Source of the DNA: an uncultured Pelagibacteraceae bacterium
Lineage (GTDB): Bacteria; Pseudomonadota; Alphaproteobacteria; Pelagibacterales; Pelagibacteraceae
NCBI GenBank assembly: GCA_902600855.1
Contig: CACKKY010000002.1
Coordinates: 1 to 64,000 of the forward strand
Reading direction: 5' to 3'
Length of the DNA: 64,000 nucleotides
The number at the start of each line of letters is the position of its first letter. Position 1 is the stretch's first letter. The position numbers and the translations under genes are program-made. The notes below the pieces were generated by a model that was not told where the DNA came from, made no database searches, and worked only from the letters and a program-made list of their open reading frames with translations. Of the stretch, positions 23,996 to 31,142 are shown piece after piece.

Positions 23996-25486
23996 ATGAA
24001 ATTATTTTTTATACTTGGTAATCAATTATTTCCATTAAAATATATAGACCGCTTCAAAAAGGATCATACGTTTTTTATGGCAGAAGATAACGGTTTATGC
24101 ACTTATGAAAAACACCATAAACAAAAGATATTGTTATTTTTATCTTCAATGAGGTCCTATGCTGACAGTATTAAGAAAAATAAATTAAAATTAGATTATT
24201 TAAAAATAGAAGATAATTCCTTTAAAGAGGATTATTTAAAAAAATTAAAAAAAGTAATTAATAAAAAGAATATATCTGAAATCACTAGTTTTGAAATAGA
24301 AGATAAAACTTTTGAAAAAAAAATTTTACAATTTTCCAAAAAGGAAAAAATTAATTGGAATATTATTCAAACGCCTATGTTTTTAAATTCTAGAGATGAG
24401 TTTAAAAATTATTTAGGTAAGTCAAAAAAACCATTTATGGCAACATTTTATAAAGAGGTTAGAAAAAAGTCTGGGATATTAATGGGGTCTGGTGGGGAAC
24501 CAATGGGCGGCAAATGGAGTTTCGATGAAGACAATAGAAATAAATTACCAAAAGATATTGAGATTCCAAAATTTCCCAAAATCAATGAGACACATCATAC
24601 AAAAAAATTAAAACCAATTATTGAAAAATTATTTAAAGACCATCCAGGAAATACTGACAATTTTTGGCTTGCAACAGAATACGATGATGTAGTTAAGCTT
24701 TTAAATTTTTTTATAAAAGAAAAATCAAATTTATTTGGTGATTATGAAGACGCAGTAAATCAAAAAGATAATATTTTATTCCACAGTGCCTTGAGCCCAT
24801 ATATTAATTTAGGTTTAATCACTCCTGAGTTTATTATTAAAAAAGTTTTAGATTTTCATAAAAAGAATAAAATAAGAATGAATTCACTTGAGGGCTATAT
24901 ACGTCAAATAATTGGTTGGAGAGAGTTTATGAGAGGTATCTATCAAGGTTATTCAGATGAAATGGAAAATAAAAATTTTTTTAAACAGAATAGAAAAATG
25001 AAAAATTCTTGGTACGATGGAACGACAGGTCTACCACCCTTAGATCATGCAATTAAAAACGCTGTTACATATGGATGGTCACATCATATTGAAAGACTAA
25101 TGATTTTATCTAACATAATGAATCTTTGTGAGATTAAACCTAAAATTGTTTATAAATGGTTCATGGAAATGTTTGTAGACTCCTCTGATTGGGTAATGGT
25201 ACCAAATGTTTATGGAATGGGATTGTTTAGTGATGGAGGAATTTTTGCAACCAAACCTTATATTTGTGGGTCAGCATATTTTATGAAAATGATGGATTTT
25301 AAAAAAGGTGATTGGTGCAATATTATGGATGGATTGTACTGGAGATTTATTGACAGAAATAGAAAATTTTTTTTAACAAATCCAAGATTATCAATGATGG
25401 TTCGTATTTTTGATAAAATGAAAACTGAAAGAAAAAAAATGATTTTATTTGAGGCAGAAAAATTTATTAAACATAATACCTTATAG
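23996..25486 (+). CDS. cryptochrome/photolyase-related protein (DPRP, FeS-BCP/prokaryotic 6-4 photolyase type)
   Basis: FILGNQLFPL..., GYIRQIIGWREFMRGIY, HIERLMILSNIMNLCEIKPKIVYKWFMEMFVDSSDWVMVPNVYGMGLFSDGG; C-terminal Cys-containing region (YICGSAY). Confidence 0.93.
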   Translation: MKLFFILGNQLFPLKYIDRFKKDHTFFMAEDNGLCTYEKHHKQKILLFLSSMRSYADSIKKNKLKLDYLKIEDNSFKEDYLKKLKKVINKKNISEITSFEIEDKTFEKKILQFSKKEKINWNIIQTPMFLNSRDEFKNYLGKSKKPFMATFYKEVRKKSGILMGSGGEPMGGKWSFDEDNRNKLPKDIEIPKFPKINETHHTKKLKPIIEKLFKDHPGNTDNFWLATEYDDVVKLLNFFIKEKSNLFGDYEDAVNQKDNILFHSALSPYINLGLITPEFIIKKVLDFHKKNKIRMNSLEGYIRQIIGWREFMRGIYQGYSDEMENKNFFKQNRKMKNSWYDGTTGLPPLDHAIKNAVTYGWSHHIERLMILSNIMNLCEIKPKIVYKWFMEMFVDSSDWVMVPNVYGMGLFSDGGIFATKPYICGSAYFMKMMDFKKGDWCNIMDGLYWRFIDRNRKFFLTNPRLSMMVRIFDKMKTERKKMILFEAEKFIKHNTL

Positions 25487-28939: not shown

Positions 28940-29161
28940 ATGAATAATAAATTTTTTGAATGGTCAGGTGTAATTACAGCAATTTTATACTCGTTATTTG
29001 TTGCTTTAAATATAGGTATAGAATTTTTTGGTTTCTGTTTATTACTTTTATCTGCAATTTTGATAGGAATTTGGGCCTATAGAGGACGCCATAAAGGAAT
29101 TTTATTTTTACAATTTTTTTATGCGACCGCAGGAATAGTTGGAATGATAAGATGGTTTTAA
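28940..29161 (+). CDS. small hypothetical membrane protein
   Basis: 73 aa, hydrophobic helices, ILIGIWAYRGRHKGILFLQFFYATAGIVGMIRW. Confidence 0.65.
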   Translation: MNNKFFEWSGVITAILYSLFVALNIGIEFFGFCLLLLSAILIGIWAYRGRHKGILFLQFFYATAGIVGMIRWF

Positions 29162-30297
29162 ATAAAAGTTGAAATTATTTTTGGTATATAATTTTTAAAA
29201 TTAAAAAAACCTTTGTTGCAGTATTGCCATGAAAATTGATCTAAATTCCTATATATGAAATCCACTTTTAAATTATTTAAATTTAAGTAGTCTAAATTTT
29301 CTCCAACAGTAGGATATAAACCATAATAATTTTCAATATCTTTAATTTTACTAATATCAATAACTTCACAATCAATAGATTTTTCTTTTAACCTTTTTTC
29401 TTGATCTTCTATTAAAAGAGATTTGAATTTTAATAATTTTTCACTAAGTTTTATTGATCTGTTTTCATTTTTGTTAGAAATTATATAAATTTTTTCAAAT
29501 TTACTTTTTTGAAAGTTAGTAGTTTCAAATGATAGATTATTTTCAAAAATTAAAAGATTTTTTTCTTCAAGTTTTTGTGGGTTATCAAAGTTTCTTGGAA
29601 TTATAGAATAGAATTTATTAGAAAACTTTGGTGGAGCATTTTCATTTAATTTAATGTTTTGAAATCTATTATTGGTAAATTTTTTAATATTCCATTCGCT
29701 AGCTAGGTAGTGTTTGCCCTGTGTTTGAACACCAGCTACCCATCTCCAACCAAGAGTATTTGATGCAGCGTCTCCATCATATAGGTGCTGCATAAAAAAT
29801 TTAGCACCTAGTTGCCATGGTAGTTCAAGTGTAAATATCCAGATACTTGCAAACCACATTCTTGTGTGATTATGAAGATAATTATTTTCTTTAAGTTCAT
29901 TTACCCACTGATTAAAGCACTCAATATTTGTTTTCCCTTCAATAGCATCCAAATAATTTTGTTTATTCCTAAATTCATTATTAAGATTATTTAAATCTAT
30001 TAAGTAATCAGACCAAACATTAGGTCTAAGCTCTAGCCACCCTTTCCAATATGTTCGCCATAAAACTTCCTGAATAAATTTCTCATTTTTTGTAAATGAA
30101 AATTTTTTAAGACATTTATCAATAACCTCTAGCTCATTGATTATCCCATGCGTTATGTATGGAGATGAACAAGAAATGTTAGATCTATTATCTGGACCAA
30201 AATCAAAGTTTCTTAATTTTGAATATTCTGAAAGATGACTCTCAATAAAATCATTTAGTTTTTCGATTGCCTTCTCTCTTGAAGGTTCAAATATCAT
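29158..30297 (-). CDS. photolyase/cryptochrome FAD-binding-domain protein with a C-terminal alpha/beta-like extension
   Basis: FIQEVLWRTYWKGWLELRP, YLHNHTRMWFASIWIFTLELPWQLGAKFFMQHLYDGDAASNTLGWRWVAGVQTQGKHY in the first ~225 aa; no N-terminal photolyase-type alpha/beta domain. Confidence 0.85.
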   Translation of the reverse strand: MIFEPSREKAIEKLNDFIESHLSEYSKLRNFDFGPDNRSNISCSSPYITHGIINELEVIDKCLKKFSFTKNEKFIQEVLWRTYWKGWLELRPNVWSDYLIDLNNLNNEFRNKQNYLDAIEGKTNIECFNQWVNELKENNYLHNHTRMWFASIWIFTLELPWQLGAKFFMQHLYDGDAASNTLGWRWVAGVQTQGKHYLASEWNIKKFTNNRFQNIKLNENAPPKFSNKFYSIIPRNFDNPQKLEEKNLLIFENNLSFETTNFQKSKFEKIYIISNKNENRSIKLSEKLLKFKSLLIEDQEKRLKEKSIDCEVIDISKIKDIENYYGLYPTVGENLDYLNLNNLKVDFIYRNLDQFSWQYCNKGFFNFKNYIPKIISTFI

Positions 30298-30303
30298 ATT
30301 AGT

Positions 30304-30684
30304 TTATTTTGATTTTTTTTTCTTTAGACCTAATTTATCACTATGTCTTAATCTTAAAATTACAATAGCACCCGCAATAAGAACTATAGCAATTGCCTCA
30401 TACACCAAAGCTGTTGGATCCATTTCTTTTCCTTGCAAAATTATAAATCGAGCAAGAGCTGTGATCGCAATCAAGAGTGGAAGAGTTATGCTAATTGACT
30501 GTTGATCCCAAAATACTCTTACCATTGCAAGAACTTCTAAATAAAGAAACATTAATAGCAAATCTGCTAGTGTAACTGATTGGTTGAGGAACATATTTTT
30601 CATTTCCATGCCAACAGCAATCACTGTGCTTATTAAAATTATACACATTAGAATTAATTGTAAATTTTTTGCTATTTTTTCCAT
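30304..30684 (-). CDS. PsiE-like (phosphate-starvation-inducible) membrane protein
   Basis: LADLLLMFLYLEVLAMVRVFWDQQSISITLPLLIAITALARFIILQGKEMDP. Confidence 0.85.
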   Translation of the reverse strand: MEKIAKNLQLILMCIILISTVIAVGMEMKNMFLNQSVTLADLLLMFLYLEVLAMVRVFWDQQSISITLPLLIAITALARFIILQGKEMDPTALVYEAIAIVLIAGAIVILRLRHSDKLGLKKKKSK

Positions 30685-31142
30685 TACTTATCTTTACTAA
30701 ATGGTAGCCATTTTTCAAATACTGATTTTGATGGTCCATCATATGGAATTGAATAAGAGCTTGGGTTAGGACTTGTTAAAACTTCTATTCCTTTAGAAAA
30801 TATAAAAATAAATACTATTACGAAAACAATTACCATTATCTTAAAGGGATCAAAATTTTTTGTTTTAAAAACGCTAGTAGATTTTTCCTCTGCTTTATGA
30901 AAATGTTTAAATGTCATATACACAGCAAATATTAATCCTATGTGTGCCACGTACAAACCAGCCCACCCAAATGCAAAAGTTGTATATGAAAATACATATA
31001 AACTGAAAACTGTAGTCCAAATAAAACTTAAAACTAACAGAATTTGAAGTCTTACTGTTTTAGGAAGAGATCTAAGATCATTTTTGCTATCATCAAACAA
31101 AATGTTTGCTGCATCAACCATCCAATTTTTAATTGATTCCAT
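30684..31142 (-). CDS. hypothetical membrane protein
   Basis: 152 aa, three or so TM helices; start of PsiE-like ORF overlaps its stop. Confidence 0.65.
   Translation of the reverse strand: MESIKNWMVDAANILFDDSKNDLRSLPKTVRLQILLVLSFIWTTVFSLYVFSYTTFAFGWAGLYVAHIGLIFAVYMTFKHFHKAEEKSTSVFKTKNFDPFKIMVIVFVIVFIFIFSKGIEVLTSPNPSSYSIPYDGPSKSVFEKWLPFSKDK

Follow-up and report, generated by a model that had tools for sequence, protein, structure and literature searches.

The 64,000-nucleotide stretch of DNA analyzed here (the window) carries, at positions 29158 to 30297 of its minus strand, an ATG-initiated gene for a NewPHL-type (Phr7-like) reverse-order photolyase of 379 amino acids plus stop. The first-pass annotation had called this open reading frame photolyase-like, which was confirmed. 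The protein consists of an N-terminal FAD-binding, catalytic helical domain (residues 1 to 209; 29671 to 30297), delimited by Pfam PF03441, an alignment to 1dnp, and Foldseek; a poorly conserved linker that is coil in the AlphaFold2 model (residues 210 to 244; 29566 to 29670); and a C-terminal alpha/beta Z-domain (residues 245 to 379; 29161 to 29565), delimited by AlphaFold2, Foldseek, and hhalign via Phr5-like intermediates and ending in the motif GFFxFKxxIPxxI, all encoded on the minus strand. Two small membrane-protein genes lie directly upstream on the same strand, a PsiE-like gene at 30304 to 30684 and another at 30684 to 31142, and homologs of these occur near the photolyase gene in 49 and 48 of 80 SAR11 loci, respectively; the fetched flanks of the SAR11 loci also include argG (69/80), an aldo/keto reductase (67/80), and a GATase (36/80). 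With the end of the PsiE-like gene at 30304, just 6 bp from the photolyase start codon, an N-terminal domain cannot have been overlooked. That spacing and the same extent of the gene in its relatives rule out a missed upstream domain or a frameshift, and the overlooked upstream alpha/beta domain against which the first-pass annotation had cautioned is found neither in the SAR11 gene nor in its relatives.

Several classes of photolyase with this domain order have been described. Phr7 combines an N-terminal FAD domain with a C-terminal Z-domain, does not carry Fe-S cysteines, and is a cyclobutane pyrimidine dimer (CPD) photolyase acting on single-stranded DNA; the reverse-order Phr4/Phr5 and Phr6 proteins carry Fe-S cysteines (PMC9426592, mBio 2022). 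The name NewPHLs is used in PMC13274461 for proteins with inverted domain topology, for which four accessions are listed (A8LJA9, M7YZC8, Q2N8F4, and B6IPR5).

Full-length matches to the window protein, 51 to 83% identical and free of internal stops, were found in 24 of 61 related genomes besides the window's own, in open frames of about 380 to 415 amino acids with a conserved tail. Across 289 genomes from the class, a further 20 encoded the full architecture (mostly in about 380 to 430 amino acids) and 8 carried a short FAD-only gene. A sample of 299 genomes drawn from the whole phylum gave 13 matches, all in that class. The 80 close homologs analyzed came from Pelagibacteraceae, Candidatus Pelagibacter, and HIMB114, which places the window in SAR11. 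Homologs with named hosts, at about 31 to 34% identity to the SAR11 sequences, belong to the Roseobacter group (Ruegeria sp. TM1040), Niveispirillum cyanobacteriorum, Peteryoungia desertarenae, Asticcacaulis excentricus, and Novosphingobium; where RefSeq annotates the named members, it does so only as "FAD-binding domain-containing protein." Scans of viral contigs revealed nothing that pointed to viral or phage carriage, and matches to phage records covered the FAD part only, at 24 to 30% identity. A truncated or misassembled classical photolyase, having lost its N-terminal antenna and bearing an unrelated tail, would fit the partial coverage of the Pfam model by the FAD domain, but this explanation is refuted by the relatives and its probability is close to nil: the 24 other full-length matches have the same length and a conserved tail, the 80 loci come from separate genome records, the whole protein adopts a confident fold in AlphaFold2, and the upstream gene lies 6 bp from the start codon. 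The reversed-domain open reading frame is thus neither a chance occurrence nor an assembly artifact.

The N-terminal half of the protein is matched by the Pfam family FAD_binding_7 over residues 74 to 198 (E = 1e-15; profile positions 1 to 127 of 203), the sole Pfam match in the protein at E <= 1. Residues 2 to 197 align to the C-terminal half of solved class I/III photolyases (1dnp residues 204 to 395, E ~4e-14; 4u63 residues 222 to 410), which shows that the FAD domain stands at the very start of the protein; the earlier reading to this effect is borne out by Pfam and the AlphaFold2 model as well. The final 70 or so residues of a classical FAD domain are lacking. Foldseek searches with the whole AlphaFold2 model matched photolyases and cryptochromes over about 195 to 250 columns, consistent with the FAD domain. 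Sequence searches of the PDB found no solved NewPHL structure, all matches being confined to the FAD-domain half, and a 19-member profile compared with PDB chains again matched that half, with no chain matching the tail.

The active site is conserved in detail. The motif E77-x-x-W80-R81 (30055 to 30069, minus strand) aligns with the lesion-binding residues E275, W278, and R279 of Escherichia coli Phr, and HNHTRM at residues 142 to 147 (29857 to 29874, minus strand) places N143, R146, and M147 on N342, R345, and M346. In the segment DGDAASNTLGWRW at residues 174 to 186 (29740 to 29778, minus strand), D174, D176, N180, W184, and W186 correspond to D373, D375, N379, W383, and W385; this segment presumably contributes to the FAD pocket, the proximal tryptophan of the electron chain, and lesion contact. 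All 12 of the catalytic and FAD-pocket positions compared are identical in the two proteins, and we assume that the roles established for these residues in class I photolyases apply here. W161 aligns with E. coli W360 (numbering including Met1), whereas no tryptophan of the SAR11 protein aligns with W307, which is the outer one in the class I electron chain and for which W95 is a possible substitute judging from the alignment alone. Neither the SAR11 sequence nor the other NewPHL-type members contain the CxxC...C motif of Fe-S cluster cysteines, which is present in Deinococcus proteins and part of the Phr4-like proteins.

The first-pass annotation described the tail as about 130 residues of alternating strand and helix, and the AlphaFold2 model, built from the window protein and 67 SAR11 relatives (pLDDT 92.5, pTM 0.91), agrees: two domains are predicted, one made of helices that extend to residue 207 and, beyond a linker, one of strands and helices at residues 247 to 378. 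The strands of the latter comprise residues 247 to 250, 270 to 274, 310 to 314, 324 to 327, and 346 to 348, with helices between and after them. When residues 241 to 379 were modeled alone (pLDDT 86.6), Foldseek returned no match at E <= 0.001; the matches of highest probability were the antenna-bearing photolyases 5kcm, 8ijy, 4dja, 6dd6, 3zxs, and 9hnk (probability 0.91 to 0.98, TM ~0.5, 122 to 133 columns), followed by Rossmann-like nucleotide-binding folds, e.g., PPAT, MnmA, and universal stress proteins. The part of the photolyases matched would be their antenna domain, as judged from the alpha/beta fold. The region is accordingly a Rossmann-like alpha/beta domain in both AlphaFold2 and Foldseek. 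Across 19 members, Pfam yielded isolated weak hits to the tail but no consistent family, and the antenna family PF00875 matched none of the 19 at E <= 10.

A loose resemblance of the tail to the antenna domain had already been suggested, and it gains support from Foldseek and from profile comparisons through intermediates. Compared directly in hhalign, the Z-domain and the classical antenna gave weak scores (E = 0.0025 to 0.004, probability 9 to 12%) near that of the best control among unrelated window genes, the aldo/keto reductase (E = 0.011), and it was therefore not used alone. A profile of the antenna-like second parts described below (Phr5-like intermediates) aligned with the classical antenna over 137 collinear columns (probability 97%, E = 5e-11) and with the NewPHL Z-domain over 126 columns (74%, E = 3e-5), and the Z-domain matched the merged antenna and second-part profile at 86% (E = 5e-6, 117 columns), all E-values being those of single comparisons. 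Homology of the Z-domain to the antenna domain is thus likely, though not proven.

Reverse-order proteins with an antenna-like second part occur in several groups. Deinococcus proteins of 456 to 472 amino acids have the FAD-first order, and the C-terminal part of the one scanned matches PF00875 (E = 7e-4). The reverse-order photolyase is a single fused gene in three Deinococcus plasmids (loci L193, L198, and L199); in a fourth, that of Deinococcus sp. QL22 (L200:1396-2687), it consists of two overlapping genes, the second of which, annotated as a hypothetical protein, matches PF00875 (E = 2e-4). Seven of the eight alphaproteobacterial FAD-only genes (L041 to L045, L047, and L048) are directly followed by an open reading frame that is antenna-like to a varying degree and encodes 130 to 154 amino acids after trimming; in L047, for example, the FAD gene ends at 2109 and the second frame spans 2105 to 2533. 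Neither Pfam, for four of these second genes, nor NCBIfam, for one, gave a match above a curated cutoff. The alphaproteobacterial two-gene photolyases resemble phr4/phr5 of marine Synechococcus. Two Persicobacter plasmids (Bacteroidota; L197 and L201) also encode reverse-order photolyases, with a divergent antenna-like C-terminal domain, at positions where no gene is annotated.

We lean toward the view that the NewPHL Z-domain is a degenerate, relocated antenna domain that arose when a FAD gene came to precede an antenna gene, an arrangement seen in the alphaproteobacterial and Deinococcus split pairs, with subsequent fusion and shrinkage. NewPHLs would then be photolyases whose parts were rearranged, as opposed to primitive proteins close to the root of the family, where Emmerich et al. 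(NAR 2020) reportedly considered that they may lie. The fused and split intermediates are relevant to the origin of the reversed order. Of the circular permutation proposed in the first-pass annotation, the reversed order is upheld by sequence, structure prediction, and homologs, but the term itself is less apt than "domain-order reversal," because about 70 classical FAD-domain residues are missing and the two-gene versions point to a reversal of gene order and fusion.

In a maximum-likelihood tree of the FAD domain, the SAR11 protein groups with NewPHL-type proteins in a clade of 23 members (support 100/99) that includes the homologs from Roseobacteraceae, Azospirillaceae, and Sphingomonadales as well as those of Peteryoungia and Asticcacaulis. 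The NewPHL-type and Phr4/Phr6-like reverse-order proteins group together, apart from the classical photolyases (100/100, under a midpoint root only). Ruegeria, Niveispirillum, and Novosphingobium represent the families or orders of the published NewPHL hosts Dinoroseobacter, Rhodospirillum centenum, and Erythrobacter (hosts from PMC13274461), and NewPHL membership was judged through these relatives from the same orders rather than by direct comparison with the four published sequences. The SAR11 tail is probably the same Z-domain as that of the published proteins, as indicated by the family it shares with the Roseobacter and other homologs.

The gene is accompanied by other photolyase relatives. 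At 23996 to 25486 on the plus strand, 3.7 kb from the NewPHL gene, lies a second one of the (6-4)/PhrB type (DPRP; 496 amino acids), and such a relative is found near the NewPHL gene in 67 of 80 SAR11 loci within the fetched flanks. With just four cysteines, none of them in a CxxC pair, the window's copy probably belongs to the Fe-S-free type known from Prochlorococcus (PromaPL). A class I-like photolyase is encoded on another contig of the window's own genome. With the profile TIGR02765, which passes its cutoff in one control genome, no DASH cryptochrome above the cutoff was found in the 61 related genomes, several of them incomplete; the window protein scored 55.8 bits against a cutoff of 317 bits and is not a DASH cryptochrome. 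NewPHLs are said by Emmerich et al. (NAR 2020) to substitute for DASH photolyases, and the absence of DASH here is consistent with such a substitution.

Taken together, these observations make it very probable that the gene product is a SAR11 photolyase of the NewPHL class (Phr7) that carries out light-driven CPD repair, preferably on single-stranded DNA. Extrapolating from characterized relatives, the N-terminal helical domain would bind FAD, and a flipped-out CPD, preferably in single-stranded DNA, would enter a pocket formed by E77, W80, N143, M147, and W186. Reduced FAD, excited by blue or UV-A light, would donate an electron that splits the dimer, and FAD could be recharged via W184, W161, and a third aromatic residue. 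The Z-domain, packed on the catalytic domain, would most likely serve as a flavin shield and not as a light harvester; in the work of Emmerich et al. (NAR 2020), the C-terminal domain is said to seal the FAD site. The SAR11 NewPHL may replace the missing DASH photolyase, alongside the class I-like photolyase and the (6-4)-type relative.

Receptors have arisen repeatedly from photolyase folds, and in a genome that already encodes two other photolyase relatives, one class I-like and one of the (6-4) type, the protein might be a cryptochrome-like blue-light photoreceptor that uses the fold for signaling and has lost DNA repair. This is improbable, given that the lesion-contacting E77, W80, N143, M147, and W186 are all conserved, that the SAR11 protein has no added signaling extension, and that signaling partners are generally held to be few in SAR11. 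Characterized relatives, moreover, repair CPDs (PMC9426592). A NewPHL-class photolyase with another main substrate, whether (6-4) photoproducts, double-stranded DNA, or RNA, is also unlikely: the single-strand preference is known for two relatives only, but the active-site residues match those of CPD class I photolyases and a separate (6-4)-type relative is encoded nearby. The first-pass annotation had regarded the function of its permuted architecture as open; the architecture stands, whereas the function is less open than supposed, as the class is known and its activity has been determined in relatives (PMC9426592).

SAR11 bacteria are among the most abundant organisms of the sunlit ocean and have highly reduced genomes, and many SAR11 lineages retain the NewPHL gene despite this reduction. 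Its identification extends the SAR11 UV toolkit by an enzyme that probably repairs CPDs in single-stranded DNA. The reversed architecture (NewPHL, 2020) and CPD repair in relatives were already known. What may be new are the assignment to NewPHL in SAR11, the alphaproteobacterial split FAD/antenna gene pairs, and the view of the Z-domain as a reduced antenna; no report of a NewPHL in SAR11 was found in the papers searched, although the original NewPHL paper may include SAR11 sequences.

Among known systems, the SAR11 protein is most like NewPHL (Emmerich et al. 2020), with which it shares the N-terminal FAD domain, the C-terminal Z-domain, the absence of an N-terminal antenna, and an alphaproteobacterial distribution. 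Phr7 of Prochlorococcus, likened to the SAR11 protein by description, likewise has an N-terminal FAD domain, a short Z-domain, and no Fe-S cysteines and comes from the sunlit surface ocean, but it is cyanobacterial. The Phr4/Phr5 and Phr6 group (marine Synechococcus and Cyanobium; Deinococcus, Persicobacter, and alphaproteobacterial relatives) also has the FAD part first and the alpha/beta domain or gene second; in contrast to the SAR11 protein, which has neither Fe-S cysteines nor a recognizable PF00875 after the FAD domain, its alpha/beta part is still a recognizable antenna, the published Phr4 and Phr6 carry Fe-S cysteines, and the two parts are often separate genes. The class I CPD photolyase of E. 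coli shares the catalytic and FAD-pocket residues and the fold of the FAD domain, but its antenna is N-terminal, its length is 472 amino acids, and its C-terminal helices are complete, whereas the SAR11 protein has no N-terminal PF00875 and departs from the classical layout of PF00875 followed by PF03441.
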